Origin: a virus
Reading direction: 5' to 3' (one strand)
DNA: 28,059 nucleotides
Virus record (IMG/VR): IMGVR_UViG_3300030382_001896
Location: 1 to 28,059 of that record
Under the pieces are notes generated by a model that searched no databases, was not told where the DNA came from, and saw nothing but the letters and a program-made list of their open reading frames with translations. Shown one piece after another: positions 2,949-17,310 of this stretch. Numbering within the stretch: the first letter of the stretch is position 1; every line of letters begins with the position of its first letter. A program made the position numbers and the translations under genes.

Positions 2949-3273
2949 ACATTATAAAATCGTTAGTTGTTGTGTGTTGCGTGTAATTATTATTATTAAC
3001 GCTATATGTGCTTACCGTTTGGTCAGTACAAAATATTTTTCCTTTAAATACTACGTCACTTCCATTTCTAACTTCAAAAGTGTAAAATCTTCCTTCTATT
3101 AAAGTAAAACTAGCCGTGATAGTTTCGTAGTAGTCGTTAGAAGCTGAAGAAGTTATAGAAATAGTTGAAGTCGTGTTTGTGCTTTCATCGGTAACATATA
3201 ATCCATCGTAAGTTAAAGAACGTGGAATAAACGAAAAAGTTTGTGCTGAAGTTGACGTTGTTAATATTACCAT
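2941..3273 (-). CDS. Small beta-rich virion protein of unknown role
   Basis: A 110-aa protein rich in Ser, Thr and Asn, with alternating hydrophobic residues that predict beta strands (SLTYDGLYVTD, ITASFTLIEGRFYTFEVRNG). No signal peptide, cysteine cluster or catalytic motif is seen. It heads the portal sub-cluster: its ATG lies 3 nt downstream of the TAGTTATATA element and about 58 nt beyond an intrinsic terminator, and its 3' end overlaps the portal start by 8 nt. Its place and composition suggest a small head or tail decoration protein; I do not recognise a named family. Confidence 0.55.
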   Translation of the reverse strand: MVILTTSTSAQTFSFIPRSLTYDGLYVTDESTNTTSTISITSSASNDYYETITASFTLIEGRFYTFEVRNGSDVVFKGKIFCTDQTVSTYSVNNNNYTQHTTTNDFIMYE

Positions 3274-3276
3274 ACT

Positions 3277-3311
3277 TATATAACTATTTTTCGTGTTTTT
3301 GTTTCGTATTG
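3277..3311 (-). promoter_or_regulatory. Late-promoter-like element (ACAA-N12-TAGTTATATA)
   Basis: On the minus strand, CAATACGAAACAA (3311-3299) is followed by 12 nt and TAGTTATATA (3286-3277), then AGT and the ATG at 3273. The upstream box matches 10 of 13 bases of the identical box found at 6100-6088 and 7214-7202. The element sits just downstream of a terminator, where a promoter would be needed. An AAACACGAA motif lies inside the spacer. Promoter function is inferred. Confidence 0.55.
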
Positions 3312-3330
3312 TAAAATACTTATTTTAAAT

Positions 3331-3358
3331 AAAAAAAGTGGTTACCGAAATAACCACC
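3331..3358 (-). terminator. Intrinsic terminator after the tube-like gene
   Basis: On the minus strand a perfect 7-bp stem, TAACCAC paired with GTGGTTA (plus-strand arms 3338-3344 and 3351-3357, 6-nt loop), is followed directly by seven Ts (3337-3331). It lies between the stop at 3409 and the start at 3273, so it should end or attenuate transcription after the capsid/tube genes. Confidence 0.85.
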
Positions 3359-3408
3359 TTAAAACACAAGTATAGAAAGAAAGATAAAATTCTATTTTGT
3401 TGTAATCA

Positions 3409-3969
3409 CTAAGATTCTACTATCGTTATTGAACCACCCATTAAAGTATCTAATTCTGAAACGGTAGTGCAATTAATAAAGTTAGCTGGAAGTTCTTCTT
3501 GCGCTGTAAATGTTAATCCGTAACCATTGAAGTCCCCAAGGGCACTCCCAGAACTGATATTTCCAGCCGTTAAATCACATCCGTTGTCTAATCCTAACAA
3601 GAACCATTGGTCACCTCGACAATGAACAATTATACGTGGTCTTCCATAAGAAATCAGCTTCACATTCTTCGTAGTTTTAACATCTTGTCTTTTAAGCTGA
3701 ACGGTTAACGTCTGCTCGAACCACGTTGTTCCGTTTTCACGTGAACTATTAATCGTTTGTTCAAAGCTGTTATTTCCTTTTAATTCAAATTTATAAAGAT
3801 CGATAGCACCAGCAGCGATTGCTGTTATTTGGTCGGTGTTTTCACTCGTGCCGTATGTCGTTACTGCTGGAAAATCTAAATCTCCGTAATTGATTAAATA
3901 AATTGCGTGGATTCCTGAAACGGCATCTTTACATTGTTCCGTTCTTCCTCCTATAATATCACAAGCCAT
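3409..3969 (-). CDS. Putative major tail (tube) protein
   Basis: A 186-aa protein. It opens MACDIIGGRTEQCKDAVSGIHAIYLINYGD, contains NNSFEQTINSSRENGTTWFEQTL (residues about 66-88) and later DQWFLLGLDNGCDLTAGN and GYGLTFTAQEE. This order of motifs is what I remember for abundant tail-tube-like proteins of Bacteroidota siphophages. It lies directly downstream of the major capsid gene, flanked on both sides by hairpins, which suits a highly expressed unit with its own transcript boundaries. Four cysteines are present but with no metal-site spacing. The tube role is an inference. Confidence 0.55.
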   Translation of the reverse strand: MACDIIGGRTEQCKDAVSGIHAIYLINYGDLDFPAVTTYGTSENTDQITAIAAGAIDLYKFELKGNNSFEQTINSSRENGTTWFEQTLTVQLKRQDVKTTKNVKLISYGRPRIIVHCRGDQWFLLGLDNGCDLTAGNISSGSALGDFNGYGLTFTAQEELPANFINCTTVSELDTLMGGSITIVES

Positions 3970-3997
3970 TATTTAAGTTTTTTTTGTTTAACAATAA

Positions 3998-4017
3998 GTG
4001 GGGTTTTTACACCCCAC
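3998..4017 (-). terminator. GC-rich hairpin, probable attenuator after the capsid gene
   Basis: A 7-bp perfect stem (GTGGGGT with ACCCCAC, 6-nt loop) lies in the 59-nt gap between the capsid gene stop (4029) and the next start (3969). On the minus strand it is followed by TTATTGTT, a broken U-tract, so termination is probably partial, or the hairpin may stabilise the capsid mRNA 3' end. It is the most GC-rich hairpin I noticed. Confidence 0.55.
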
Positions 4018-4028
4018 CACTAATTATC

Positions 4029-4949
4029 TTATGCGTAAATAACTACGTCGGAATTAACTCCCATAGCTACTGCTGCTGTAAATCTCATAATTACACGAAC
4101 ATTTTGTGAACCGTCAAGGTCACTCATATCTAGTAATTTAACTTCGTTAGCGTCATTTAGCAAACCAGTTCCAAAGAACATATTTGACTTCTGCGCTGCC
4201 ATCATTGAATTAGCTGGAAGACCTTGCGCTACGGCTATTTTAATACCGTCAAAGCTAAGTTCACCACCATTGAACCAAGATGTTCCTTTGTTGTCAACAC
4301 CAGCACCACCGATAGTTGCTACGAAACCACCTAAAGCACGGATGTAATGTCTTGCCACTCCTGGCGCTACATAGATAACTAAATCTTCTTTTCCGTAAAC
4401 TGCTGCTGGTATTGCGTCTACTACTTTTCCTAGTTCGTCAATAACGTTAGTTGCAGTTACTGTTGTTCCAGTTACAGCTACACAACCTGAACCACCTGCC
4501 GTTGCTAATGTGTAAAATCCGTCAAATTCTCCAGCCGTTGCATTAACACCATTCCAAATAGTATTTTCTATTTGTTCAGCTACTTTCGCTGCCGTGTGTG
4601 CAATGATGAAATCTGACAAGCTTGGTGCAAGATGATCAAACGCACTAAAACCCATTTGTTCAGCTTCCCAAGAATTTACTAAGTCTTTTTTACAAACTTC
4701 GTAATTTACTTGGAACTCCTCTGGTTGGATAATTTTCTCACTCAAAGTTAATGTTCCACTTGCTGTGTAGTCGCAAGTTGCATCTGCTACGATGCTTCCT
4801 AATGCACCTACTTGTAAAACACTTTTATATTTTACGTTTGGTAATACTGTGATTAGACCTTTGTCTAAAGTTGATGCTGAAAGTAAAGCCGCAGACAAAT
4901 ATTTACCTGAAAACTCACCAGCATACGTTGAAGTTAATGATACGCTCAT
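4029..4949 (-). CDS. Major capsid protein
   Basis: A 306-aa protein of the length and character of HK97-fold capsid proteins from Bacteroidota phages. Visible are an N-arm rich in Ser and Ala, a strand region with ATCDYTASGTLTLSEK, the E-loop-like IIQPEEFQVNYEVCKKDLV (residues about 94-112), an A-domain helix around AAKVAEQIENTIWNG, FDGFYTLATAGG, and a C-terminal beta segment (SQNVRVIMRFTAAVAMGVNSDVVIYA). It follows a Glu-rich scaffold-like gene and an XkdF-like protease lies upstream, which is the usual capsid-assembly order. A strong hairpin follows the stop. It assembles the icosahedral shell. Confidence 0.8.
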   Translation of the reverse strand: MSVSLTSTYAGEFSGKYLSAALLSASTLDKGLITVLPNVKYKSVLQVGALGSIVADATCDYTASGTLTLSEKIIQPEEFQVNYEVCKKDLVNSWEAEQMGFSAFDHLAPSLSDFIIAHTAAKVAEQIENTIWNGVNATAGEFDGFYTLATAGGSGCVAVTGTTVTATNVIDELGKVVDAIPAAVYGKEDLVIYVAPGVARHYIRALGGFVATIGGAGVDNKGTSWFNGGELSFDGIKIAVAQGLPANSMMAAQKSNMFFGTGLLNDANEVKLLDMSDLDGSQNVRVIMRFTAAVAMGVNSDVVIYA

Positions 4950-4973
4950 TTTTTTTTATTTTTAATTAATAAT

Positions 4974-5597
4974 TTATTTACTTAATTTTTTCATTACCCT
5001 ATCTAAAGTTGTTTCACTTCTATTTTGTGAATACTTAAACCCGTCAATTACTTTTGAATTTTCAGGATTGTGAACTATTGGATTTGTTTCTTCTATTTCT
5101 TTTAGTTCTACTTCGGAAGTTACTTCTTTAATTTCTTCTTCTTTATTCGTGTTTTCAACTGCTTTTAGTTTTAGATCTTCCATTTCTTTTTTCAAAGATT
5201 CGTTTTCTTTTTGAAGCTTTTCGATTTCAGAAAAATAAGATTCTTTAGTAACGGATTCAACAACTTTTTTAGGTGTTGTTGTTTCTTCTTTAGCTTCTAC
5301 TTCTTCTTCAGGTTCTACAACTTCTTCTACTTCTTCTTCTTTCTTTTCTTCTTTTACTTCAGCAATAATCCCTTCTTCTGAAACTACTAAAACACGTTTA
5401 TCTTCTAACGTGTATTCACCTACTGGAAGTGCTACTTTTCCGTCTTCCGTTATAATTACGATTTCATCACCAGCAGCAAAGTCTTCACTTTCTACGATTG
5501 TTAAACCGTCTTCAAGTTTCATTTGTGCAAGTCTTACTTCTTCGCTTTCAACACCTAAAAGTGTTTTTATCTTTGTCAAAATTTCAGTTGTATTCAT
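4974..5597 (-). CDS. Scaffold-like capsid assembly protein
   Basis: A 207-aa protein directly upstream of the capsid gene. Residues 28-80 form a small beta module (LTIVESEDFAAGDEIVII, LPVGEYTLEDKRVLVV). Residues 80-125 are an almost continuous Glu/Lys/Val tract, 120-170 a predicted coiled coil (EKLQKENESLKKEMEDLKLKA), and the C-terminus ends YSQNRSETTLDRVMKKLSK. A disordered acidic middle, coiled coil and basic C-terminal tail are typical of phage scaffolding proteins, whose C-terminus binds capsid subunits. It could instead be a decoration-protein precursor. A run of TTC/TTCTTC repeats on the plus strand (about 5280-5350) encodes the Glu tract. Confidence 0.6.
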   Translation of the reverse strand: MNTTEILTKIKTLLGVESEEVRLAQMKLEDGLTIVESEDFAAGDEIVIITEDGKVALPVGEYTLEDKRVLVVSEEGIIAEVKEEKKEEEVEEVVEPEEEVEAKEETTTPKKVVESVTKESYFSEIEKLQKENESLKKEMEDLKLKAVENTNKEEEIKEVTSEVELKEIEETNPIVHNPENSKVIDGFKYSQNRSETTLDRVMKKLSK

Positions 5598-5621
5598 TTT
5601 TTTATTTTTTTAATAATAATT

Positions 5622-6062
5622 TTATCCATATTTTTCATCATACCTATCTTCAATTTCATTTGTGATAGTTATTAACCTGGTGTAAGACTTGTCCCATTCT
5701 TTATAGTTTTTTATATCGCTTACATTTAGTCCTAATTCTTTGACTGCTTTTTCTATTTTTTCAGAAGTAGTGTCCATTTCACGCTTTAGTTTATCTGCAC
5801 TTTTAGATTCTCTTAAAAGCTTGTCGTATTTTTTTTCAACACGTTTTTTTGTTTCTTCTAATTCCGTTTGTAATTTATATAATTTTAGTTCTTCACCACC
5901 AGCATCGTCTATTCCAGAATTAATAGATTTAATTAAATCTTGCGCTTTACTTTTTTGAGCATTTAAATCATCTACTAAACCTAACTCAATTTTTTGACTT
6001 TCTAAATTCGTTTTTTCTTCTTTAGAAAATAAACGATTGTAAACAGATTTTTGTGTGTTCAT
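5622..6062 (-). CDS. Coiled-coil head-assembly protein, paralogue of 6263..6598
   Basis: A 146-aa helical protein with coiled coil from about residue 45 to 110. Its N-terminus, M-x-T-x-K-x-VYN-x-LFSK followed by T-x-LE-x-x-KIELGL, is clearly shared with the 111-aa product at 6263-6598, as is a DAGG motif (about residues 52-55), so the two are paralogues. It has its own late-promoter-like element 3 nt upstream of the ATG. Its place between protease and scaffold genes suggests a role in prohead assembly. No enzyme motif is present. Confidence 0.65.
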   Translation of the reverse strand: MNTQKSVYNRLFSKEEKTNLESQKIELGLVDDLNAQKSKAQDLIKSINSGIDDAGGEELKLYKLQTELEETKKRVEKKYDKLLRESKSADKLKREMDTTSEKIEKAVKELGLNVSDIKNYKEWDKSYTRLITITNEIEDRYDEKYG

Positions 6063-6065
6063 AAC

Positions 6066-6100
6066 TATATAACTATTTAATTTTTGTTTGTTGCGTTTTC
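6066..6100 (-). promoter_or_regulatory. Late-promoter-like element (ACAA-N12-TAGTTATATA)
   Basis: GAAAACGCAACAA (6100-6088), a 12-nt spacer, then TAGTTATATA (6075-6066), GTT and the ATG at 6062. The 13-base upstream box and the spacing are identical to the copy at 7180-7214, although the flanking DNA differs. Confidence 0.6.
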
Positions 6101-6103
6101 AAA

Positions 6104-6259
6104 TTATACTTTGCCTATTCCTTGTGCGTGTATTGTGCCATCGCAGCAGTCTACGTGATAAGTATTGTCTTCACATAAACAACCACGTCTACTTCCTTTT
6201 GGTGAAGTTCTACTTGGTGTTGTGTTCTTCCTTGTTCGTGTTTTTTTAGCTTTTGGCAT
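6104..6259 (-). CDS. Small Cys-rich conserved phage protein
   Basis: A 51-aa protein. The first 25 residues are very basic (KAKKTRTRKN, KGSRRG); the second half is GCLCEDNTYHVDCCDGTIHAQGIG, with CxC at residues 27-29 and a CC pair at 38-39. The C-terminal CCDG-x-x-x-AQGIG pattern is one I recall from small proteins in the structural regions of flavobacterial phages; its role is unknown. Four cysteines plus a histidine could bind a metal. The gene sits between the two coiled-coil paralogues, starting 4 nt after the upstream stop. Confidence 0.7.
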   Translation of the reverse strand: MPKAKKTRTRKNTTPSRTSPKGSRRGCLCEDNTYHVDCCDGTIHAQGIGKV

Positions 6260-6262
6260 TTA

Positions 6263-6598
6263 TTATAAACTTTCTAATTTTTGTAATTGTGTTTTAAATT
6301 CTTTTAATGCTTGTTCAGATTTATTTTCTAATTGCATTAACGCTTTATCTGTAATGCCTAAATCTTGTGCTTTTTTAATAGTGTCTTTTATTTTTTTATT
6401 TACTTTTTCAAGTAAAGAAACATTTTTAGAAAGTGATTGTTTTGCTTTTAGAATAAAACCACCAGCATCGGAAGCCTTACTGTTGTATTCTCTAAACTCA
6501 GCTTGTAACACTTGAATTAAACCAAGTTCAATTTTATGCGTTTCTAATTCCGTCTTTTTACTGAATAGTCCGTTATAAACTGCTTTCTTTGTAATCAT
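6263..6598 (-). CDS. Coiled-coil head-assembly protein, paralogue of 5622..6062
   Basis: A 111-aa helical protein (MITKKAVYNGLFSK, then TELETHKIELGL) with a heptad-rich middle (residues about 50-110). It shares its N-terminal motif and the DAGG motif (residues 44-47) with the 146-aa protein two genes downstream. The ATG overlaps the stop of the protease-like gene (ATGA), which implies coupled translation. It is probably a virion or scaffold component; no catalytic residues are seen. Confidence 0.65.
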   Translation of the reverse strand: MITKKAVYNGLFSKKTELETHKIELGLIQVLQAEFREYNSKASDAGGFILKAKQSLSKNVSLLEKVNKKIKDTIKKAQDLGITDKALMQLENKSEQALKEFKTQLQKLESL

Positions 6599-7176
6599 AT
6601 TTTTTTAATTAAGTCTTTTATTTCTTCTATTATTTCTTCGTTAGTAAGTTGTTTATTAGCTTCAACTTTTTCTGCAAAATATCCTTCTATACTAAATCCT
6701 TTAATTTCTTTTTCTTTAACCTTGTTCCAAACTTCTTCGTTGTCTACCTTCATAGTAATAAACCACGTTCCTACTTCAGCATTAAAGCCGTATAAAGCAC
6801 TTTTGTCTTTTTTAGTGTCTTCGACTATCCAGCTTTCAACTACCGTCATACCTTCAATTTTTTTAGTGTGTTCGATAGTAGCGTTATTTTGATTTGAACT
6901 TTTTAAGAATAGTTGCGAAGCTTTTCTAATAGTATCTTTGCTAAAAAATATGTAATATTCTTCATTCGTCTTTTCGTTACGTCTATAAATTTGTTTCTTA
7001 GGAACTAAAGCTGCACCCATTAATAAACGTTTTTCTTCGTCTATTGTTTTAAGTTCAATTTCGTGTTTTTTTAGTGCTACCCAGTTTTCTTCGATTGCTG
7101 GATTTTCAACTACGCTTACGGCATCTATTCCAGCGTTATCATCGTCTTCGTTCAATACTAGTTCAACTATTCTCAT
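6595..7176 (-). CDS. XkdF-like prohead protease / phage serine protease
   Basis: A 193-aa protein. Key stretches are LLMGAALVPKKQIYRR (residues 51-66), ATIEHTKK (His103) and GFSIEGYF (Ser162), the His and Ser expected for the catalytic pair of the herpes/HK97-like prohead protease fold used by XkdF-type proteins. The N-terminal VENPAIEENW motif is also typical of the family. It would trim scaffold or capsid during maturation. It has its own late-promoter-like element 3 nt upstream of the ATG and starts 21 nt after the tape-measure stop. Confidence 0.7.
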   Translation of the reverse strand: MRIVELVLNEDDDNAGIDAVSVVENPAIEENWVALKKHEIELKTIDEEKRLLMGAALVPKKQIYRRNEKTNEEYYIFFSKDTIRKASQLFLKSSNQNNATIEHTKKIEGMTVVESWIVEDTKKDKSALYGFNAEVGTWFITMKVDNEEVWNKVKEKEIKGFSIEGYFAEKVEANKQLTNEEIIEEIKDLIKKI

Positions 7177-7179
7177 ACC

Positions 7180-7214
7180 TATATAACTAAATAAAATTAA
7201 ATTGTTGCGTTTTC
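7180..7214 (-). promoter_or_regulatory. Late-promoter-like element (ACAA-N12-TAGTTATATA)
   Basis: GAAAACGCAACAA (7214-7202) lies inside the last codons of the tape-measure gene. A 12-nt spacer is followed by TAGTTATATA (7189-7180), GGT and the ATG at 7176. The box and spacing are the same as at 6066-6100. Confidence 0.6.
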
Positions 7215-9233
7215 GATTTTATTACGATCTAAACTTTGTGCTGTTGTTATGTCACCACTTACTACATAAGCTTGTGTCGGTTGCATTTGTAATTGTGCAA
7301 GTTGATTCATTCCACTATCACCGACCACATTAAAACTTGGCGCTGAAGTTGCACCACCACCACCACCATCACCACTTGGTGCATCTGCTAAGTCACTTGG
7401 TGCTTGTCCACTTTCAAATTTAGCACTTGCTATTTTTGCTATTTGAACGGCACTAAATGCACCAGCTATTCCAGCTTGTATTGCTTTTAATGCAAGACCA
7501 CCGGGTGCATTCGCAAACGTTGTTATAACTGCCTTGTAACCACTCATTGTAGCTTCGGCAATATCTGCTGCTTTCTTAATATTAAAAGCACGTTTTTGTT
7601 TTCGTTTATCGCCTTTAGCCATTAAGTCTGCTATGTCTGAAACTAATCTTAAACCATCAATAGCAATATTTGCCATTGCTTGTGCTGTTTCTTTTGCTTG
7701 TTCTTTACGTTTTGAATCTCTTGCTACAGCACGTAGATAAAATTGATGTTCAAGGTTATCTTTATGCTCTAATAATTCTTTTGTCATTGAAATTTCTGTG
7801 GCGTTTCTTGTTTCCATCTTTGTAAACTCAACTTCGCCACGCCTATCACCTAAAGCAATTAATTTTCCTTGTCTTATTTCCTCTTGTTCTACAAGTAAAT
7901 CTGTCTTTTGTTGTTCCGTTAATTTTACATTCGCTAAAGTATCTTCACGGATTCTTTTGTGCTGCGTATTTATTAAAATAACTTCTTTGTCGTATCCGTC
8001 TTTTAATTGTGCTATTTTTAAGTCTTCAAGTTCACGTTCAATTTGTAAATTAAATGCACGACGTTCTGCACGTTTTGCTCGTCTTGCTTCAGCTTCAGCT
8101 TCGTTTTTTTCTCGTTGGTCTTCTAGTTTTTGTTCTTCTTCAGCAAGTGCAATAATATCCATTCTTGCTAACTCTTGCTCTTTTCTAAATCTCTCACCTT
8201 CTAATGCAACTCTTTGTTGTGCAGTCATATATTTTTTTGCGCTGCCTTCTAATCTCATAAGATTAGATATCTCCATTTTTAAATTTTCTTTTCTTAGCTT
8301 GTTTATTTTTAGTTCATTGCCTATGCCTTCTGCTTGTAAATCTTTTATTTTTTCTTCATTTTTTATAATATTTTTTTTACGATTTATAACAGTTACGCTT
8401 TCGCTATCTAACTTCATAATATGTGCTAAATCTCTTTCATTTTGAGTATTTAGTTTTTCTTGTGCTTCTGCAGCGTCTTCTACTTCAGAAGTGTATTTAC
8501 TTACAAGCGCAGTTATTTCGTCCCAATATGCAGCTACTGCACCCAAAGCGATTAAAAGCACTCCTATTCCAGTTGCAGCAACACCAGTTTTAATTCCAGC
8601 TAAAGCTTTTTGTGCTGCCAAGCCCATAGTTTGAAAAGACTTTGCCCCTTCTCTTAGTCCTTGTATACCTTGACTAATTGCCATTGCAGCGTTTAACTTA
8701 ATAAGTGTTTCTTCTAGTTCTTCGCTTTCCGTTCCGAACAATGCCATCGTTCCTTGTGCTACGGCAAATCCACTTGCTGCACCTTGTATCGCACCACCTA
8801 ATTTTTGACTCATAGTTGTAGCAGCAGCATCCGTAACCATATCCGTGTCCATTTGGATTTTACGATACTTTCCTACTTCAGTTAATAAGTCGTGATATTC
8901 TTTCGTTGCCGTATCTCCAGCCAAACTCATTTGGTATAATCTGTCTTCCATCTCACCCATTTGTGCCGTCAATGGTTTTACTTCACCGTAAACATCTTCA
9001 AACGTAGCTCCTAAGTCCGTGCTGGATTTGTTTAAATCCTTATAACTTTGTTCTAATTGTTCAAGTTGTAATGCAGCATCTCTTGCTTCTCTTGTATTAG
9101 AAACATTTGCATCTTCAAACGCTTGTACTTCGTCTTTTGCACGTTTTATTTGTTCACGTAAACTATCGAACTTTTTTTGTGCGTCTTGTGCGTTAGTGTC
9201 TACTTCTAATTGGATTGTTTTTTTAGTTGCCAT
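7197..9233 (-). CDS. Tail tape measure protein
   Basis: A 678-aa protein, the second longest in the window. The N-terminus (residues 1-75) is coiled coil (DAQKKFDSLREQIKRAKDEVQAFED). Residues about 140-250 are Ala/Gly-rich with a likely membrane-inserting segment (GVAATGIGVLLIALGAVAAY). Residues about 340-470 are a long charged helix (EEQKLEDQREKNEAEAEARR). The C-terminal third has another hydrophobic part and a glycine run before the end. Long helix, hydrophobic segments and position in the tail cluster fit a tape measure, which sets tail length and is ejected with DNA. At this length the tail would be of the order of 100 nm (rule of thumb). Its ATG overlaps the previous stop (TAATG). Confidence 0.8.
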   Translation of the reverse strand: MATKKTIQLEVDTNAQDAQKKFDSLREQIKRAKDEVQAFEDANVSNTREARDAALQLEQLEQSYKDLNKSSTDLGATFEDVYGEVKPLTAQMGEMEDRLYQMSLAGDTATKEYHDLLTEVGKYRKIQMDTDMVTDAAATTMSQKLGGAIQGAASGFAVAQGTMALFGTESEELEETLIKLNAAMAISQGIQGLREGAKSFQTMGLAAQKALAGIKTGVAATGIGVLLIALGAVAAYWDEITALVSKYTSEVEDAAEAQEKLNTQNERDLAHIMKLDSESVTVINRKKNIIKNEEKIKDLQAEGIGNELKINKLRKENLKMEISNLMRLEGSAKKYMTAQQRVALEGERFRKEQELARMDIIALAEEEQKLEDQREKNEAEAEARRAKRAERRAFNLQIERELEDLKIAQLKDGYDKEVILINTQHKRIREDTLANVKLTEQQKTDLLVEQEEIRQGKLIALGDRRGEVEFTKMETRNATEISMTKELLEHKDNLEHQFYLRAVARDSKRKEQAKETAQAMANIAIDGLRLVSDIADLMAKGDKRKQKRAFNIKKAADIAEATMSGYKAVITTFANAPGGLALKAIQAGIAGAFSAVQIAKIASAKFESGQAPSDLADAPSGDGGGGGATSAPSFNVVGDSGMNQLAQLQMQPTQAYVVSGDITTAQSLDRNKIENATI

Positions 9234-9385
9234 TATTTCTTTTTAAAGTACAGTTTTCTTTTTTCGTGTTTATATATTTTTTTTATATTGCTTTCTAACT
9301 TGTACTTTCCTTTTGCTATTTCTATGTTTTCACTTATTCCGAAGTGATCATCTAGTTTTAACATTTCTATTATGTTCTTTATCAT
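9233..9385 (-). CDS. Small basic protein between tail genes
   Basis: A 50-aa Lys/Ile-rich protein (MIKNIIEMLKLDDHFGISEN..., ending YFKKK). Both ends are coupled: its ATG overlaps the upstream stop and its own stop overlaps the tape-measure ATG, each as TAATG. Double coupling supports a real gene. Its pI should be high. An AAACACGAA motif lies inside, read as Lys-His-Glu. Function is unknown; in this slot it may help tape-measure or tail assembly. Confidence 0.6.
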   Translation of the reverse strand: MIKNIIEMLKLDDHFGISENIEIAKGKYKLESNIKKIYKHEKRKLYFKKK

Positions 9386-11805
9386 TACGGTTGTTGTATT
9401 AAAACACTTGTATCGTTTACACTTCCATTTGCGTATGTGTGTGTTATGGTTAATAATATGTCTTGTGTTTGACTGTCTTCAGTTACTATTTGATTGTAGT
9501 CTTCCGTGTTTATGTTAGCTGTCGCAGCTTCGTTAATTATGTAAGTTGTTGGATTCGGATTTACTGGAACACATACAACTATTACTTGACTACTAGTTAT
9601 TGTACTTGGTGTGATAGTAACACCAGCAGTTGTTGTTGTTATCGTTGCACTTACAACACCATTTAATAAGTTTATTGGAACGTCTACACAATTAGCACCA
9701 GCATTTGTGTTTACTGCTATTGACGGTCTTACTGGTCTGAAGTCTAAAAGTAAAGTAAAGTTTACTTCGCCAGTTGTTAAGTTCGACTTCATTTCGTTAA
9801 TAATATATCGCTTGTCTGAAATTACTAAACGGTCATTTAATTGTAATTCTGTAAGAACGGAAATAGGAAGCTGCGTTTTTACTTTTACAAGTCTATTTTG
9901 TAGTCTATATAAGTTAGCTAAATAATTAAAATAATAAGTTGCAAACAAACTATTGTTAATAGGATATAAAAGAAACGTTGATATGTCAGCATTGAAATTT
10001 AAACTATAATCTTCAACACCATTTATTTGTACGTCTTGACCAAATGGTAAATAATTTGTTATCGTTTGCTCAGAACTACCATCGTAAAATTTAACGCTTG
10101 TAGTTTGGTTATCATACATATAAAACAAACAAGGCTTTGGAATATAAGGTGCAAGATTTTCGTCTAACGCATAAGCTACTTGTAAATCTGTTCCAGTAAA
10201 TTTTTCACCCATTAAATTTTCGAAAGGCAACTCAACAGTAAATTCGCCACCGTCATAGTCGTATTCTTCCGTAGCATCACCGTATTGTTTTAAGTAAAGC
10301 TTATCAAATTGTTTGTTTAATATACTTTGTCCTTCTTGATATTTAAAAGCTATTTTTTTATATAATGGTACACGGTCAACGTCAATGCTTGTTATGTCCG
10401 TGTAAGTTGTTATGTCGTAAACATCGCCAGTATTATAAAACGTTTCTAATGTTTCAATTTGATATATGTCTACTTCCGTTCCAAATAAAGTAAGATTAAA
10501 CATTTTTAATATTCCACTAAAGAAGTCTGCTACTTTCATTTCAGGTACTAACGCTGCAAGATTTGTTATTCCAGTTAAACTTTGTGTTGCTCCTAATCCT
10601 ACTACTTGAAAAGAATCTGTTCCGATTTGTGGTGTTGCTGTTGAATCTGTCCACCAAAAACCTTGTGTATAAGAAATGTCGGCTTTAAAAGTTATAGCTT
10701 CGGTTGCCCTAACATTGAAATAAAATTCGTGTGGTAAATTATCATTGTAAGCTGTGTACATATTAAATGTTTGGTTCGTGTTTCCACTACCTGAAGCCGT
10801 ATTATATAGCACCCCATTTTCATATGCATCAATATAATAAGTTACCGTTGCACTACTAATTGCACTCATTGTAACCTTAATAATATTGTTTTTTAAAGTT
10901 AAGCTTCTATTTGGATATGTAGTATTGTAATTCGGATTCATCATTTCCGAAATATTGGAATAATCAAAATTCAATGTTCCAGCACTTAGATCAAAAGGAC
11001 TAACCGTAGCCCCAAAATTATAACTTACAGAAGTAGTGTTAACTTTTAATGGTTGCGTGATAAATGTATTTGCTTTCGATTTCTTGCCCCATAAGAATAG
11101 TTTTTTAAAAACATCTAAACCAAAAAAAGTGCTATTAAAAGTAACACCGTATTTAGCTTCTATTGCATCAAAAAGTTTAGTTGCTTTGATAGCTGGAAAT
11201 AATTCCGTGTATACTATCCTTCCGTTTGTGTGCGTTATGTCATCCGAACCACTTCCACTATTAGTCCAATTTCGTTCACTACTTATTAAAGGATAACGAA
11301 TATCGTAGTCGGTTGAATGATCCGTGATTCTATTGTAAACTTCCGTTCCAGTATATGAATGATTTAAAGAATCTAAATCTAAGTCGCTTAACATATCTTC
11401 GCCAAACTTATCTTTTAAACTTGTTAATTCACCGTAGAAAGTTAAAGTGTAGCTTTCAGGTTTTCCGTTTTTTAGATTCGCTTTTTCTAGTTGTATTTTT
11501 CCAGTTCGAAAAGGTGTTAAGTTAATTTCAATACTTGCACTTTTTCTTACGTTTACATTAAATGTAAATGAAGTTGAAGCACTTGGTGTTACGTCATTAG
11601 GATTATATTCAAAGACTTCCGAATTATAAAAGTGTTGAAATATTTTATTATTGTTTACGGTTGCTGGAACGGTAAAGCTTTGACTGAAGTCCGTATAAAC
11701 TTTTGAGATGTCAGCAATATTTTGAATCGTAGAACTAACGTTAATTTGTTCATCATTAAACAAGTCAAGTTGAACACCTTCAATATATATTTGAACCTTT
11801 CTCAT
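9385..11805 (-). CDS. Large tail / baseplate-associated structural protein
   Basis: An 806-aa protein, the largest here. The N-terminus (MRKVQIYIEGVQLDLFNDEQ) and the region with SKVYTDFSQSFTVPATVNN are patterns I associate with a large tail protein of Bacteroidota phages and prophages. The rest is Asn/Thr/Tyr-rich and predicted beta, with no Walker, lytic or protease motif. The last 100 residues (ATITTTTAGVTITPSTITSS) look like a beta-sandwich module. It lies between another tail gene and the tape measure, consistent with a tail-tip or baseplate component. It overlaps the upstream gene by ATGA. Confidence 0.6.
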   Translation of the reverse strand: MRKVQIYIEGVQLDLFNDEQINVSSTIQNIADISKVYTDFSQSFTVPATVNNNKIFQHFYNSEVFEYNPNDVTPSASTSFTFNVNVRKSASIEINLTPFRTGKIQLEKANLKNGKPESYTLTFYGELTSLKDKFGEDMLSDLDLDSLNHSYTGTEVYNRITDHSTDYDIRYPLISSERNWTNSGSGSDDITHTNGRIVYTELFPAIKATKLFDAIEAKYGVTFNSTFFGLDVFKKLFLWGKKSKANTFITQPLKVNTTSVSYNFGATVSPFDLSAGTLNFDYSNISEMMNPNYNTTYPNRSLTLKNNIIKVTMSAISSATVTYYIDAYENGVLYNTASGSGNTNQTFNMYTAYNDNLPHEFYFNVRATEAITFKADISYTQGFWWTDSTATPQIGTDSFQVVGLGATQSLTGITNLAALVPEMKVADFFSGILKMFNLTLFGTEVDIYQIETLETFYNTGDVYDITTYTDITSIDVDRVPLYKKIAFKYQEGQSILNKQFDKLYLKQYGDATEEYDYDGGEFTVELPFENLMGEKFTGTDLQVAYALDENLAPYIPKPCLFYMYDNQTTSVKFYDGSSEQTITNYLPFGQDVQINGVEDYSLNFNADISTFLLYPINNSLFATYYFNYLANLYRLQNRLVKVKTQLPISVLTELQLNDRLVISDKRYIINEMKSNLTTGEVNFTLLLDFRPVRPSIAVNTNAGANCVDVPINLLNGVVSATITTTTAGVTITPSTITSSQVIVVCVPVNPNPTTYIINEAATANINTEDYNQIVTEDSQTQDILLTITHTYANGSVNDTSVLIQQP

Positions 11806-12914
11806 ATAACAGAATTAATAGCATCAAATGCATATTTAAAAGTTAATGTATAATTCATAGGTTTGTCAGCATTTACGCCTTTAATCTTTTCAACGCTTTT
11901 AGTGTTTACTATTACTGGCAAACTATCGACTAGGATTCTTTCGCTAAGTAAAATTTGTTGTATAGTTTCAGAATATCCTTCAGCTACATTTCCAGTATTA
12001 CAAGTTATTGTTTCTTCGCCATTATTATTAAAAGCTTTTCTTTGTCCTTCTAAAGTGCTATATGCATTGCTACTTGTTTGCATTAAATTATAAACACTTT
12101 CTTTCGTGTTTATGTTGTTTTTTGAAGCTTTGTAAAACCATTCACGCTGCCAACATCCATACTTATTTACGAAGTCAATCATTATAGGTGTGTACTTAGG
12201 TTCGCACTTAGGCTTAAAAGTCCACGTTCCTAAAAGTGTAGGTGAACCACCACCAAGGTTGTCCCAAATTTCCATTGTATTTCCGTCAGCATAGTAGTCG
12301 TACCATACAGTAGGAACATCATATAAATCGTTAGTTGCAAATGGATTGCTAACTATATTTGTTGCCCCACTAACTAAATTAGTATATTTAATGTCTGCTA
12401 CTGCACCTTCTAGTAATACACCCATAAGTCCAGCACGGTCAGCTTCTAAACTTGTTGGATTACTCGCAGCCGAATACTTATAATAATAAGTGCTTTGTGG
12501 CAATGACCATTTTCCTAAATCTATATTTGCCCCTTCAGAATAGTAACCGTATCCATCCATACAATAATATGTAGTCGTGTCTAATAAAGTAAAATTTCCA
12601 GCCGTTGTTTCTTTGTATCTTTTAACTTGTAAAAGCACCATTTGGTTGTTGTTGTTAGCAGCAACACCAGTCGAAATTGCTGAACCAATAACGGTTTGTC
12701 TTGTAGTGAACTTTAAATATTCCCTTGTGTACGGACTTACATCGTAATACATCTTCAAGTTAGAAGAATTAGGAACTGGTTTTTTTAGTGTGTATTGTGG
12801 ATTCGTAGGAACAGAAGTACCACTATAATAATATCTTAATTCAAGCTTTGAACCCACTACGCTGGATTCGTCTACTTCTATAATGTAAGGTGAACGTGCA
12901 AATAGTTTAGCCAT
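11802..12914 (-). CDS. Tail structural protein of unknown role
   Basis: A 370-aa protein rich in Tyr, Asn and Thr with predicted beta structure. It begins MAKLFARSPYIIEV; near residue 250 it carries FVNKYGCWQREWFYKASK, followed by a helical QGRKAF-like part, and ends MNYTLTFKYAFDAINSVI. I recall proteins with the GCWQREWFYKASK pattern beside the 800-aa tail protein in flavobacterial phages. No enzymatic motif is seen. It directly follows the HK97-gp10-like gene (1-nt overlap) and probably belongs to the tail tip. Confidence 0.55.
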   Translation of the reverse strand: MAKLFARSPYIIEVDESSVVGSKLELRYYYSGTSVPTNPQYTLKKPVPNSSNLKMYYDVSPYTREYLKFTTRQTVIGSAISTGVAANNNNQMVLLQVKRYKETTAGNFTLLDTTTYYCMDGYGYYSEGANIDLGKWSLPQSTYYYKYSAASNPTSLEADRAGLMGVLLEGAVADIKYTNLVSGATNIVSNPFATNDLYDVPTVWYDYYADGNTMEIWDNLGGGSPTLLGTWTFKPKCEPKYTPIMIDFVNKYGCWQREWFYKASKNNINTKESVYNLMQTSSNAYSTLEGQRKAFNNNGEETITCNTGNVAEGYSETIQQILLSERILVDSLPVIVNTKSVEKIKGVNADKPMNYTLTFKYAFDAINSVI

Positions 12915-13468
12915 TATTTATTTTTTAATGATTCGTCAATAATTGATACTAATAAATTTTCCATATCTAATCCGTATTTTTCTATAAGTTCTTCAGGAAG
13001 TTGTTTAAATTGTTTTTCAAATGGTTTAGTGAAAAACATACTTGCTTTTATTCCGTGATGAAATACACTTCTCGCAATTAAAAAGTTAATTGATTTTCTT
13101 TTTAAGAACTTACCAGTTTTTTTATCTCTTATTCCTTTAATCGGTTTTCTTATACCCCACTTATCAAATGCACTTGGTGGTGGCATACCTTTTAAACCAC
13201 GTTTACCACCTTTACTTTTATAACTAAAGTTTGAAAGTGAAGAACCACTTTTAACCCCTTTCACTCCTTGGTCTTGAAACCATCCGTAATTGTCCATCTC
13301 AAAGAATACACGAATAGAATTGGGCATTACTTTAACTTCTCCTTTTATGGAATCTTTTAGTTTACCACTTACATTTTTATTCTTTTTTTGCAAATTAGAC
13401 TTTGCAGCTTCAACAACTTTGCGTTCGAATTCTTGTAGTGCTTCCAGTAAAAAGTTAGAATCAGACAT
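12914..13468 (-). CDS. Tail-completion / neck protein (HK97 gp10-like)
   Basis: A 184-aa basic protein. It has an N-terminal helix with FERKVVEAAKSNLQKKNKNVSGKLKDSI (residues 14-41), then a YGWFQDQGVKG motif (about 61-71), a Gly/Lys/Ser-rich loop, and FDKWGIRKPIKGIRDKKTGKF. The early 'S-G-x-L-x-x-S-I' and the 'Y...QD-x-G' motif match gp10-like neck and tail-completion proteins. It overlaps the previous gene by 8 nt. Its place after a tail-terminator-like gene supports this. Confidence 0.55.
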   Translation of the reverse strand: MSDSNFLLEALQEFERKVVEAAKSNLQKKNKNVSGKLKDSIKGEVKVMPNSIRVFFEMDNYGWFQDQGVKGVKSGSSLSNFSYKSKGGKRGLKGMPPPSAFDKWGIRKPIKGIRDKKTGKFLKRKSINFLIARSVFHHGIKASMFFTKPFEKQFKQLPEELIEKYGLDMENLLVSIIDESLKNK

Positions 13469-13916
13469 CGCAAACGGACATTGTGTTGGGTGTGTTAATA
13501 TTTATCGTCATTGTCCATCCAGCTAATTTGTTTTCAAACCTATCTACAAAGATTTCTAAATTAGGTGTTCCGTCAACTTGGAAATTGTCATCGTATAAGT
13601 TACCACGTCTTAGCTTTTCGTATAGTCTATTAAGAACGCTTATTTGTGTGTTTAGTACATCTTGTTCGTTGTTGTTTCCTCTGAACTTGTTAGTAGTTTC
13701 GTCTTTTGATATGTCGACAATGTCCATACTTAAAATACTAATATTGTATTGGATAACATTATCTACAAACGTTGCGCTATTAACTATTATATGACATAGT
13801 GGAAATATAGTTTGTTTCGATAAATCCACGTCAAAGATGTCCCCACTTCCGACGGTTGAAACTAAAGGGTCGTTGTTTAGTTCGGTTTGTAGCTTGGTTA
13901 GAATTTCGTAATACAT
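13461..13916 (-). CDS. Tail terminator-like protein
   Basis: A 151-aa protein starting MYYEILTKLQTELNNDPLVSTVGSGDIFDVDLSKQTIFPLCHI. The pattern (an N-terminal helix, a strand with a D-x-x-K-x-x-x-P-L motif, then FVDNVIQYNISILSMDIVD and a C-terminal beta strand LAGWTMTININTP) resembles small tail terminator or minor tail proteins that cap the tube. The ATG directly abuts the stop of the -1-frame tail-chaperone extension (TAAATG), which supports that frame as the real upstream gene end. Confidence 0.5.
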   Translation of the reverse strand: MYYEILTKLQTELNNDPLVSTVGSGDIFDVDLSKQTIFPLCHIIVNSATFVDNVIQYNISILSMDIVDISKDETTNKFRGNNNEQDVLNTQISVLNRLYEKLRRGNLYDDNFQVDGTPNLEIFVDRFENKLAGWTMTININTPNTMSVCDV

Positions 13917-14195
13917 TTATTTAATTTTATTTAATTGTCGCTGCATCTCACTATCTTCAATATCTCGCTTTTGCTTTTCAAAAGTAAGCCAGGTAAGGCA
14001 GTCGTGTAATGGTAGCTTTGTGACATTCCTAAATCTTTCAAGCTGTCCTTCAGCGATTGCATATAAACTTTGATACCATCCCCATTGCTTGGCAAATTGA
14101 GTTCTTTGAGAAAAGTCGCTTTCATTTCCTTCGTCGTCATCTGTGCTTCTAAATATTGAAGTGTAGCTTTTAACAAGTCGTTTGTTAAATTCCAA
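13917..14195 (-). CDS. -1-frame extension of the tail-assembly chaperone (T-like)
   Basis: A 92-codon open frame that begins exactly at the slippery site and has no ATG there (first codon TTG). Read after a -1 shift it continues the upstream protein from residue 163 as LEFNKRLVKSYTSIF, giving a 255-aa fusion. The sequence is convincingly protein-like (DFSQRTQFAKQWGWYQSLYA, LPLHDCLTWLTFEKQKRDIED), and the next gene's ATG abuts its stop. It is therefore probably not a separate gene but the C-terminal half of the frameshift product. A one-base homopolymer sequencing error would give the same picture. Confidence 0.65.
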   Translation of the reverse strand: MEFNKRLVKSYTSIFRSTDDDEGNESDFSQRTQFAKQWGWYQSLYAIAEGQLERFRNVTKLPLHDCLTWLTFEKQKRDIEDSEMQRQLNKIK

Positions 14196-14683
14196 AAAAA
14201 AACCTTCGCTGCTAGTGATATTCCTAAAGGTGCGTACTTCATTACCTCAGCATAGTTAGCCGTTCCGTTGTATTCTTGTATAGTATATTTGTCACCTTTC
14301 TTTTCAGTTATTGGTCTATACATTACAGCCATTGCTTTGTGTAGTTGGTCAATGCTTTTTAAGTTAGTGTCTAAGTCTATGTATTCGCCAAAGCTTATTT
14401 CTTCTAAGTTAGGAACGAAACCAAATTCAACTTTGTTTAGTGTAAACGTTCTTTGAAATTTAGGTTGTTCTTTAAAGATGTTAGAAAGATGTATTGTTAT
14501 ATCTTGTACGTCAGTCCACTTAACTTTTAATACTTCACGAAGTCTTAGACCACAAAATATTTCAGTCATCTTTTGGCATAGAAATTCTTCGTCGTTCGTG
14601 TTTTCGTAGGTATGCATAAACTTTTGGTAGCTTCCTAATGGTATTTCGTTAATGTCCGTTGGTAGTAAAATTTCTGCTTCCAT
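13931..14683 (-). CDS. Tail-assembly-chaperone-like protein, zero frame (G-like)
   Basis: A 250-aa product of the zero frame. Residues 1-163 look natural (ILLPTDINEIPLGSYQKFMHTYEN; a long alpha/beta middle; APLGISLAAKVFF). The last 87 residues share DNA with a second open frame. A slippery U UUU UUU at codons 162-163 would shift some ribosomes to the -1 frame (next entry). This copies the lambda G/GT arrangement, where short and frameshifted forms guide tail-tube assembly around the tape measure. Unlike lambda, the zero frame stays open for a long way here; its last 30 residues (QSYHYTTALPGLLLKSKSEI) look less natural and may be a by-product. The ATG is 3 nt after a TAGTTATATA element. Confidence 0.65.
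   Translation of the reverse strand: MEAEILLPTDINEIPLGSYQKFMHTYENTNDEEFLCQKMTEIFCGLRLREVLKVKWTDVQDITIHLSNIFKEQPKFQRTFTLNKVEFGFVPNLEEISFGEYIDLDTNLKSIDQLHKAMAVMYRPITEKKGDKYTIQEYNGTANYAEVMKYAPLGISLAAKVFFWNLTNDLLKATLQYLEAQMTTKEMKATFLKELNLPSNGDGIKVYMQSLKDSLKDLGMSQSYHYTTALPGLLLKSKSEILKIVRCSDN
14169..14203 (-). promoter_or_regulatory. Programmed -1 ribosomal frameshift signal
   Basis: Zero-frame codons GTT TTT TTT TGG contain the heptamer T TTT TTT (14201-14195). After a 5-nt spacer (14194-14190) comes a perfect 8-bp stem-loop, TTTAACAA and TTGTTAAA (arms 14189-14182 and 14176-14169) with a 5-nt loop. Heptamer, spacer and stem-loop have the layout known to drive -1 frameshifting in bacterial and phage mRNAs. 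The stem is AU-rich and so fairly weak. Confidence 0.65.
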
Positions 14684-14686
14684 ATC

Positions 14687-14714
14687 TATATAACTAATTT
14701 TTTTGTTTTTGTAT
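14687..14714 (-). promoter_or_regulatory. Late-promoter-like element (ACAA-N12-TAGTTATATA)
   Basis: ATACAA (14714-14709), a 12-nt spacer, TAGTTATATA (14696-14687), then GAT and the ATG at 14683. The upstream box keeps only the ACAA core of the 13-base box seen at 6100 and 7214. It lies just downstream of the large-terminase stop, where a tail-gene transcript could start. Confidence 0.5.
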
Positions 14715-15871
14715 TACCTAATGTGATAAGTTCCATAATTCTTGTTGCTTAAATTTTCCATTTCGTGATAACGTAGTGCATCTATTAAATGATCATTCCC
14801 ATTACTTCTTGGCTTGTTTAGTTGTTTGCCAGTCTTGTCACTATCCCAAACATAACCACGTAGTTCTTTTATTAAATTAAGACTTGAAGAAGTAATTAAG
14901 TATTCTTGGTTTTGCATAAGCTGGATTCCAAATAGTATGCTATCTTTTCCTTTAGTACAACCTTTAATCATATATCCTAACCTTCTTATTTCTTCTATAC
15001 TTTTAGGTTCTGCGCTGTCGGCTATAACTAGTTCGTGTTTTGGTAGCTTCTTCGCTATTTCTTCATTGACTAATTTCGTTTGATAACATACTTCGTTAAC
15101 TATTCTTTTGCCGTTCCATAAGTGAATAGAACAAATTGCTGTGGGGTCTGCTGAGTACCCAAAGTCAAGCCCATATCCAATTAGCTTTGCATCTTCAGGA
15201 ACTTCGTCTATTTGTGTCCAGTTTTCTAATACTACACCTTGTAAGTTTCCTATTTCACCAAGACCGTAAACCATCCACCAGTTCTTCCAGTAAGCTGAAG
15301 TCTTTGCTTTTTCCTTTGCCTTTTCTATTTCAAATATTATGTTTTTATCTAGTGCTTCGTTGTCTAAATAATTAAGCTTTAAAAATTGTGCGTTACTATC
15401 TTGCTTTAGTTCGTGTGCCCAAAATTCGTTAGATGGATTGAAGTCTAAATAAACTTCGTCTTTTGTTCGTATAGCTAATTCGTTATACATTTCAAAAGTT
15501 ATGTTGTTACATTCGTTAATATATAATATATCACGTCTTGCCCCACGAAGTCTTGAACTATCGTCAGCACTAAAAAATTCTATAAAACTTCCATTTGTAA
15601 ATTGATACTTTAACAAGCTACGGTTAAAAAGTTGTTCACGGTATCGGTTTAAACCTTTAAGTAACTTTATGCAGTCACGTATGCAACCACGTCTTAAATG
15701 TGGAATAGATTCACTTACTACGCTTATTTCTAAGTTAGGTATTTTAATAGCTTTGTCAATTAACAATATTAAAATAGAAATAGTCTTACCAGCAGAAGTT
15801 CCGCCTTGAATAATTTTTATTCGTTTTTCTAACCTACTTATCTTGTTGACTGCTGTCGTTCTTCGAAACAT
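14714..15871 (-). CDS. terL: Terminase large subunit
   Basis: A 385-aa DNA-packaging motor. The ATPase half shows Walker A GGTSAGKT (residues 23-30), a hydrophobic strand before the acidic pair ILYINE (115-120, Walker B with catalytic Glu120) and a probable coupling motif DFNPSN (143-148). The nuclease half shows Asp236 in GYGLDFGYSADPTA, Asp285 in VIADSAEP and a third acidic cluster NDHLIDALRY (359-368), giving the RNase-H-like metal site. Length and motif order fit the Terminase_3 type. It overlaps the small-subunit gene by 38 nt. Packaging mode cannot be told from the sequence alone. Confidence 0.9.
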   Translation of the reverse strand: MFRRTTAVNKISRLEKRIKIIQGGTSAGKTISILILLIDKAIKIPNLEISVVSESIPHLRRGCIRDCIKLLKGLNRYREQLFNRSLLKYQFTNGSFIEFFSADDSSRLRGARRDILYINECNNITFEMYNELAIRTKDEVYLDFNPSNEFWAHELKQDSNAQFLKLNYLDNEALDKNIIFEIEKAKEKAKTSAYWKNWWMVYGLGEIGNLQGVVLENWTQIDEVPEDAKLIGYGLDFGYSADPTAICSIHLWNGKRIVNEVCYQTKLVNEEIAKKLPKHELVIADSAEPKSIEEIRRLGYMIKGCTKGKDSILFGIQLMQNQEYLITSSSLNLIKELRGYVWDSDKTGKQLNKPRSNGNDHLIDALRYHEMENLSNKNYGTYHIR

Positions 15872-16184
15872 CTATATCAGGGAAAATTGGTTGTTCAAAT
15901 ATTGTTTGATCTATTTGTTGGATTGGCGCACCGTAACCACTATCCATTAAAGCTTTGTATGCGTTTACATCACCAGTACGTGCCTTTTTAATTAGTGCTA
16001 ATGTCATTGCATCTTCTTGACTTAAAGCTTCTTCATTTCCAGTAATTGGATTCTTAAACTTTTGATTAGTTTCTAACCATTTCTTAGCGATAGTGCTTCG
16101 GTTCTTGCTTCCTTTCTTCCTTCCTTTTGGGTTTCCTGATTCGCCTTTTTGCCACGCTGGTCTTAAGTTTTCTTCGTTTGCCAT
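15834..16184 (-). CDS. Terminase small subunit-like protein (DUF5681-like)
   Basis: A 116-aa basic protein. Its N-terminus has the W-x-KGESGNPKGRKKGSKNRST motif (residues 11-30) of DUF5681, a module repeatedly found next to phage large terminases, then a helical part (AMTLALIKKARTGDVNAYKALMDSGYGAP) and an acidic C-terminus. It would bind the packaging-start DNA and load the large subunit. Its ATG is 28 nt downstream of a TAGTTATATA element, the only copy with a leader of this length. Confidence 0.65.
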   Translation of the reverse strand: MANEENLRPAWQKGESGNPKGRKKGSKNRSTIAKKWLETNQKFKNPITGNEEALSQEDAMTLALIKKARTGDVNAYKALMDSGYGAPIQQIDQTIFEQPIFPDIDVSKNDSSQQDK

Positions 16185-16211
16185 TTTATTTCGGTGTTAG
16201 TTCGGTACACT

Positions 16212-16240
16212 TATATAACTACTTTTCTTCGTTTTTGTAT
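16212..16240 (-). promoter_or_regulatory. Late-promoter-like element upstream of the terminase genes
   Basis: ATACAA (16240-16235), a 13-nt spacer and TAGTTATATA (16221-16212). The TAG is also the stop codon of the ParB/methyltransferase gene. Unlike the other four copies it is not 3 nt before a start codon; the terminase small-subunit ATG is 28 nt further on. This copy argues for a DNA-level promoter rather than a ribosome-binding sequence. Confidence 0.5.
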
Positions 16241-17310
16241 CCTACGCCATTTATTTTTACTTCTAAATTTTCATCAAGTTTTAACATTCTATCTATTATT
16301 ACTTGGCAATATTTTTCGTCAAGTTCCATTCCGTAACATTTTCTTTTTAGTTGGTGTGCTGCTACCATTGTTGAACCACTACCAAGAAATAAATCGAGTA
16401 TTGTATTTTTATCTAACATATTTATACACCATTCTACAACTTTAATTGGTTTCATTGTTGGGTGTAGTTTTTTTTCTTTACCCCAATGGTGAGAAAATAA
16501 TCTACAATTATTTCCTAAATTTGACCAAGCAAGTTCAAACTCACTAAAACTTAAACCATCATTTTTTTTGTGCCAACAAAGCCAATCGTTAGTAGTGTTT
16601 AATTTATCAGTAAAATAATTGCCTCCCCAAATAATTGCTTTATTTACAAATTCTAAAACATAAAAAAAGTTAGGTATTTCATTGTCCCAATCTCCTCCTC
16701 TATAAAATTGTTTTTTGCCAGTTCCTAAAGTTTGACTATTTGCATTGATTCCATAAGGTGGGTCAGTTAATAAATTGCAAGTTTGTCCATTCATTAATTT
16801 AGCTACTTGGTCTGAATCCGTACTATCGCCACACATTAATCTATGTTCTCCTATTTCTATTATATCACCTTTAACTATATTCGTGTTTATTTCGTCAGGT
16901 ATTACGTAATTATCTTCTTCAGCTTCAGGTTCAATTTCCATATCAAAAGGCAAATCTAAACCCCAATCGTCTAATTGGTCTATGTCCCATTCGTTAGCTA
17001 AGTCATCCCATTGCCATTCACCAAAGCCAACGTTGTCTTTTATAATAAATTCGTTTTTTTGTTCTTCAGTCCAGTCGTCAGCTAGTATTATAGGTAATTC
17101 CTTCAGTCCAGCTTGTTTAGACGCTTTTAAGCGCATATTACCACCAAGCACTACGTATTTGTTATCTACGTCAGTAAAGCACACTAATGGACGTTTTTCT
17201 AACATTTCAGGAAAGCTTGTTATGCTATTAACAAGTTTGTTGAATTTTCCGTCTTTTATTAGTCGTGGATTCTTAGGATTCGATTTTATCTTATTTATTT
17301 TTACTCTCAT
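16219..17310 (-). CDS. ParB-like nuclease domain fused to DNA methyltransferase
   Basis: A 363-aa fusion. Residues 1-95 are ParB/sulfiredoxin-like (SNPKNPRLIKDGKFNKLVNSI; GGNMRLKASKQAG). Residues 140-363 are an N6-adenine/N4-cytosine methyltransferase of beta order: catalytic DPPYG (183-187) precedes the AdoMet motif LDLFLGSGST (about 305-314), with HPTMKP between. This fusion is common in phages and usually lies near the terminase, as here. It would methylate phage DNA, perhaps against host restriction. A small acidic linker (residues 124-134) joins the domains. It overlaps the upstream 128-aa gene by 20 nt. Confidence 0.85.
   Translation of the reverse strand: MRVKINKIKSNPKNPRLIKDGKFNKLVNSITSFPEMLEKRPLVCFTDVDNKYVVLGGNMRLKASKQAGLKELPIILADDWTEEQKNEFIIKDNVGFGEWQWDDLANEWDIDQLDDWGLDLPFDMEIEPEAEEDNYVIPDEINTNIVKGDIIEIGEHRLMCGDSTDSDQVAKLMNGQTCNLLTDPPYGINANSQTLGTGKKQFYRGGDWDNEIPNFFYVLEFVNKAIIWGGNYFTDKLNTTNDWLCWHKKNDGLSFSEFELAWSNLGNNCRLFSHHWGKEKKLHPTMKPIKVVEWCINMLDKNTILDLFLGSGSTMVAAHQLKRKCYGMELDEKYCQVIIDRMLKLDENLEVKINGVGYKNEEK

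Follow-up and report, generated by a model that had tools for sequence, protein, structure and literature searches.

In the phages phiEco32, SU10 and 7-11, early genes are transcribed from host promoters, and middle and late promoters are served by a phage-encoded sigma factor (annotated in SU10 as an extracytoplasmic function, or ECF, sigma factor) that brings the host polymerase to a short motif, phage-specific and repeated, in front of the structural genes (PMC4281155, PMC4331800). IMG/VR virus record IMGVR_UViG_3300030382_001896, analysed over all of its 28,059 bases (the window, below), carries five copies of a two-part element, ACAA followed after 12 or 13 nt by the 10-mer TAGTTATATA. 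From sequence comparison, this element very likely belongs to a phage-specific late promoter family of the ECF type, and its likely reader is a sigma factor encoded in the same window; the reading of all five copies as such promoters, with leaderless mRNAs at four of them, is a probable one. The likeness to the phiEco32 group is drawn by role and motif, not by sigma sequence, and the host phylum is a different one. In that group the motif is one tAATGTATA-type block lying 6-8 nt ahead of the start, whereas the predicted promoters of the window have a -35 and a -10 element, with the box abutting the start codon.

Other described systems share parts of this arrangement. ECF-type promoters (for example T. 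tengcongensis RpoE1, PMC3397946; SM6 of F. psychrophilum, PMC9723704) resemble it in an AAC-like -35, a (C)GT-containing -10 in the same register and a small two-domain sigma factor, but the clade of the window has AGTTA as its -10 core, a spacer of 14-15 nt and promoters fused to start codons. The flavobacterial housekeeping promoter, TAnnTTTG, occupies the same register (-12 to -5), but the late element lacks TTTG. Bacterial leaderless mRNAs have their 5' end at the AUG, as predicted for the late mRNAs of the phage; in the phage this would be a rule for late units, set by one promoter family, whereas in the hosts it concerns a few percent of mRNAs.

The minus strand of the window encodes nearly all genes of the virus record, those for packaging, head and tail at about 0.1-17.7 kb and other genes beyond. 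Of 50,697 phage records, only those of the two Nonlabens phages P12024S and P12024L have a match to the portal protein, and the relatives of the large terminase in bacterial genomes are from Bacteroidota. Gene order and proteins are common to the window and a set of IMG/VR relatives (G001-G024), on which most of the comparisons below draw.

Exactly five occurrences of the 10-mer are found in the window, at 3277, 6066, 7180, 14687 and 16212, all on the minus (coding) strand, and a search for ACAA and TAGTTATATA separated by 11 to 14 nt returns the same five (in 100 dinucleotide shuffles the mean is 0.02 such matches, and no shuffle has more than 1). The gap is 12 nt in four copies and 13 nt at 16212. 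In four copies, 3 nt separate the 10-mer from the ATG of a long open reading frame (ORF); the fifth lies 27 nt before the small-terminase ATG. The 13-mer GAAAACGCAACAA is common to the copies at 6066 and 7180, and the copy at 3277 matches it at 10 of 13 positions. An earlier note on this DNA had described the repeat, its gap, its distance from the ATG and the shared 13-mer in just these terms, and had placed the copies before the terminase, tail-chaperone, protease, head-assembly and portal genes; the counts are reproduced and the gene assignments agree. Two copies intrude on upstream genes: the GCAACAAT of the protease promoter falls within the 3' end of ORF 7197-9233, and the box of the small-terminase promoter overlaps the stop codon (TAG) of the methyltransferase gene.

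The earlier note had staked the element on conservation of its box and spacing, and box, spacing and place are in fact kept in relatives. All five places recur with near-identical spacing in G001 and G002, and in relatives at about 40-70% protein identity the orthologues of the pre-portal, protease and tail-chaperone genes keep the element, with drifted letters, at their starts. The protease copy is conserved in about 70 relatives; the copy before gene 5622-6062 is kept in G001-G004 and drifted in G009, and the small-terminase copy is confined to the close group. The drifted form in distant relatives is (A/G)NAACAA-N12/13-(A/C)GTTA(N6)T followed by ATG. In aligned sites, (A/G)NAACAA(A/T) is followed after 12-13 nt by (A/C)GTTA and its AT-rich tail, and 98% have a T at position -1, T(-1); within the -35 element AC is invariant and the preceding A is present in 83-100%. 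The -10 box opens with CGTT in P12024S and in some of the relatives; elsewhere, the window included, it opens with AGTT or AATT. CAACAA and TATATA, which the earlier note had taken as the two boxes, have to be given up, the conserved parts in relatives being AAC(A/G)A and (A/C)GTTA plus T(-1). Across 23 genomes, a less strict pattern that ends in TATG matches the coding strand 70 times and the opposite strand once (shuffles: mean 11.7, maximum 21), and the exact pattern occurs in at least 119 stretches, the reversed pattern in 21 in all.

The aligned sites were selected within the neighbourhood of start codons, so they cannot by themselves prove the register, and whole-genome scans were made for that reason. 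One model, for which the pre-portal sites of relatives outside the close group served as training set, was run over both strands entire; it ranks the five copies of the window 1, 2, 3, 5 and 11, and in P12024S, a cultured Nonlabens phage, 8 of its 14 best matches abut the ATG of a long ORF. A second model had the positions from -1 onward removed and the tested group excluded from its training. Of its 88 strong matches, 44 have an ATG precisely at +1, and no other offset between -1 and +20 collects more than 9; in four flavobacterial phages without the sigma factor it finds 6 strong matches, one of them abutting an ATG. Because that one coincidence of +1 and ATG remained in the sigma-less phages, a single scan match is no proof of a promoter. 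At a low threshold, match numbers are barely above those in shuffles, and the exact coincidence of +1 and ATG alone separates the family from the controls.

Counted from the A of the ATG as +1, the (A/C)GTTA box of the phage occupies -12 to -8. Flavobacterial -7 boxes span -12 to -5 relative to mapped starts (PMC6847099, PMC9723704), and the ECF motif CGTC has been mapped at -13 to -10 (PMC3397946), so the register of the phage box, as aligned, agrees with that of mapped flavobacterial and ECF boxes if transcription starts on the ATG; most late mRNAs are therefore predicted to be leaderless. The terminase copies of the close group have their ATG 22-24 nt past the predicted start and keep T(-1) and the following A or G in all examples seen. 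Likewise, several relatives have leaders of 2-5 nt, and two have leaders of 19 and 25 nt, with the T/A pair following the box. Since T(-1) and its purine usually keep their distance to the box even where the ATG has moved away, the start point appears to belong to the box and not to the codon. The earlier note had put the start at or just after the ATG and suggested leaderless mRNAs or an unusual start point. With the boxes redrawn from TATATA to (A/C)GTTA, the usual register puts the predicted start on the A of the ATG, so that leaderless mRNAs stand as the prediction and a start inside the gene falls away.

The space upstream of the pre-portal gene bears on the same point. A terminator-like hairpin lies just upstream of this gene in 43 of 47 distinct relatives, vs 0 of 154 in-gene controls, and its stem ends at a median of 40 nt from the pre-portal ATG (36-43 nt in all but two relatives). 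A space of about 40 nt is room for a promoter and little more. (Another terminator-like hairpin, at 3997-4018, separates the capsid gene, 4029-4949, from gene 3409-3969 that follows it, and has no late element behind it; the gene that follows may be served by read-through or by another promoter.)

The candidate reader, the protein encoded at 17838-18362, has 174 residues. Pfam recognises sigma region 2 in it, though below the curated cut-off, it matches the PHROG family RNA polymerase sigma factor (E = 6e-5), and the best PDB fold matches of its AlphaFold2 model are the ECF sigma factors SigL, SigH and SigmaE; the modelled region 4 matches region 4 of SigmaE in its complex with -35 DNA at 1.5 Å. 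As modelled, the protein has the ECF sigma fold, with regions 2 and 4 only. A sequence-profile search gives weak PDB matches only, the first of them a sigma factor (E = 0.016). The P12024S protein gp33, annotated with sigma region 2, is a remote homologue; no match to the window's sigma factor was found in the phage collection, and this sigma factor was not found in the examined stretches of two Bacteroidota genomes, which had been located through their large terminase. The tie between late promoter and phage sigma-like factor that the earlier note had proposed gains support from comparison. Among contigs of about 17 kb or longer picked by the DNA pattern alone, 14 of 19 encode the sigma factor, vs 1 of 17 picked by the reversed pattern, that one being a known family member (L203). 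Promoters of one genome resemble each other in their core letters beyond what chance would give (p ~4e-4, or 2e-4 when the first two letters are taken alone; eight hand-picked representatives), as is expected if a single trans-acting factor reads all of them. In G007, G009, G010 and G012, K replaces R in sigma region 2.3-2.4 (ALKN for LRN) and the boxes read AATT for AGTT; P12024S has DELR in its sigma factor and CGTT in its box. This link between sigma residue and box letter is suggestive, with few independent lineages behind it and with G006 not fitting, and the R-to-K change may reveal which residue of the sigma factor reads which base.

Host promoters are pertinent to the sigma gene itself. 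Boxes of the TAnnTTTG type precede it in G001, G002, G006 and G018, and the window has a near match at the same place. Eight TAnnTTTG boxes lie on the coding strand of the whole window vs 26 on the non-coding strand, and because the box is commoner on the latter, it is informative only by its place before the sigma gene. (A terminator-like hairpin, at 18383-18406 in the window, stands directly upstream of the sigma gene here and in G001-G003.)

These observations suggest a scheme in which a TAnnTTTG-type promoter would let the host polymerase transcribe the sigma gene earlier. Once equipped with the phage sigma factor, the host RNA polymerase would bind the AAC-containing -35 element (GAAACAA, GCAACAA or ATACAA), make a second contact with the (A/C)GTTA element at -12 to -8, and start transcription at the purine after the conserved T(-1). 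At four copies this purine would be the A of the ATG, giving leaderless mRNAs for the tail-chaperone, protease, head-assembly and portal units, and at the small-terminase copy the same rule would give a leader of 24 nt. We infer that the promoters are active, that they pair with this sigma factor, where precisely they start and that they act late; that four of the five copies yield leaderless mRNAs is the favoured outcome, though held with less assurance than the promoter family itself.

Several points weigh against this scheme. The Pfam match of the sigma factor to Sigma70_r2 (E = 4e-4) is below the curated cut-off, and its AlphaFold2 model has a pTM of 0.47, the relative placing of the two domains being uncertain. 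The -10-like box of the window's clade is AGTT and not the CGT of ECF promoters, CGTT occurring only in P12024S and some relatives; AC and the box are 14-15 nt apart in the window's clade and 15-17 nt apart in P12024S. Some weaker predicted sites lack T(-1), such as a 15-nt group in G014-G017, and kinship among contigs picked by the pattern can explain part of the co-occurrence with the sigma factor. Bacteria related to the likely hosts seldom have leaderless mRNAs (PMC9723704, PMC6847099): such mRNAs make up 5.5% in F. psychrophilum (PMC9723704), and about 3.7% of leaders in B. thetaiotaomicron are shorter than 10 nt.

The alternative that deserves most room keeps the same late promoters and places the start a few nucleotides away, or has the 5' end processed, so that the mRNAs would carry a short leader and not be strictly leaderless. 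Start selection can shift by a few bases, a few relatives show the leaders of 2-5 nt already mentioned under the same rule, and most flavobacterial mRNAs have leaders (PMC9723704, PMC6847099); yet the box comes to lie at -12 to -8 only with the ATG as +1, T(-1) follows the box where the ATG lies farther off, and the distance from terminator to ATG is short. We regard this alternative as a minor one, well short of even chances. The close contact of element and ATG at most copies could also point to a signal in mRNA translation (a start-codon context or an operator) in place of a promoter, all the more as Bacteroidota rely on start-codon context instead of Shine-Dalgarno pairing (PMC6847099). 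This is very improbable: the element extends to about -32, directly behind the terminator, the terminase copies are complete though 22-24 nt from the ATG, and no such box stands before the other late genes of the same genomes. Moreover, the known positive context in the host is an A at -3 (PMC6847099), whereas the phage has A or G there and T(-1) as its fixed base.

Reading by a host sigma factor, ECF or housekeeping, is unlikely. Flavobacteria do have several ECF sigma factors, but core letters drift in concert inside each phage genome, box letters and sigma residues change together in the few lineages noted, and the phage sigma factor co-occurs with the element, one in six strong matches abutting an ATG where it is missing. 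TAnnTTTG was rejected as the late box, since TTTG is found in none of the five copies. E. coli-type sigma-70 promoters (TTGACA, TATAAT) were rejected as well, with 45 matches vs 57 in shuffles; at the five copies there is none but a weak overlap at 3315-3286, whose box is not used. As for a phage RNA polymerase, no suitably sized ORF stood out among those searched, which were not all of the ORFs. Chance or shared descent alone, with the copies a functionless repeat of AT-rich sequence, is refuted by conservation and has next to nothing left to it. It could appeal to the composition of the window (about 32% G+C) and to the 10-mer with two mismatches, which shows no striking enrichment (104 matches vs 88 in shuffles), but the exact two-part form far exceeds chance expectation, and relatives retain it at corresponding starts while the flanks diverge.

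Table 1. Predicted transcription signals and associated genes of the window (rank, that of the match in the first whole-genome scan model)
Feature	Position	Strand	Upstream element	Box	Predicted +1	Rank	Remarks
Late promoter, pre-portal	3273..3305	-	GAAACAAA (3305-3298)	AGTTATATAAGT (3285-3274)	3273 (A of ATG)	1	Kept in relatives
Late promoter before gene 5622-6062	6062..6094	-	GCAACAAA (6094-6087)	AGTTATATAGTT (6074-6063)	6062	3	
Late promoter before protease	7176..7208	-	GCAACAAT (7208-7201)	AGTTATATAGGT (7188-7177)	7176	2	
Late promoter before tail chaperone	14683..14715	-	AATACAAA (14715-14708)	AGTTATATAGAT (14695-14684)	14683	5	
Late promoter before small terminase	16208..16241	-	GATACAAA (16241-16234)	AGTTATATAAGT (16220-16209)	16208 (G)	11	24-nt leader
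Possible sixth, weaker promoter	568..600	-	AAAACTAA	AGTTAAAAAAAT	568	4	12-nt leader to gene 116-556
Host-type -7 box before sigma gene	18368..18375	-		TAACTTTA			One base off TAnnTTTG; TAACTTTG in G001-G003
Intrinsic terminator just upstream of pre-portal promoter	3335..3360	-					Fold z = -5.0
ECF-like sigma factor gene	17838-18362	-					Likely promoter reader; Pfam, PHROG, AlphaFold2
Small-terminase gene	15834-16184	-					Assigned from position and packaging-type relatives
Tail-chaperone gene	13931-14683	-					
Prohead protease gene	6595-7176	-					
Gene of unknown product	5622-6062	-					Before scaffold and capsid
110-aa gene before portal	2941-3273	-					

No report of this late-promoter family was found in the literature searched, whose scope left out most subscription papers and all preprints. 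The element offers a testable scheme of late transcription for a large environmental phage group, that of the at least 119 stretches with the exact pattern, and the Nonlabens phages P12024S and P12024L are a cultured test case at hand. Leaderless late mRNAs, as predicted here, in hosts where a few percent of mRNAs are leaderless would bear on how Bacteroidota ribosomes choose starts without Shine-Dalgarno pairing. More speculatively, a whole lineage of Bacteroidota phages might set ECF-type promoters right at start codons, so that its late proteins of head and tail come from leaderless mRNAs, with the phage sigma factor setting both transcription and a leader-independent translation rarely used by host mRNAs, an extension that we consider doubtful.

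The leader of the fifth promoter is filled by a direct repeat of at least 6 nt, at 16185-16207, just before the small-terminase ATG. Such a repeat is present in 38 of 38 distinct relatives (loci L328-L407), with a period of exactly 11 nt in 37 (2.9% in shuffles), and its letters drift (ACACCGA, AACAACG, ACAATGA). It is possibly a packaging (pac/cos) site, a TerS binding site or an operator. The neighbouring gene at 16219-17310, just ahead of the packaging genes, encodes a ParB-like domain fused to a DNA methyltransferase; it has 25-67% identity to its relatives, as if frequently exchanged. The tail-chaperone region, at 13917-14203, has a probable -1 programmed frameshift; the ORF in the -1 frame opens near a run of nine T and shows 42-81% protein identity across 19 relatives.

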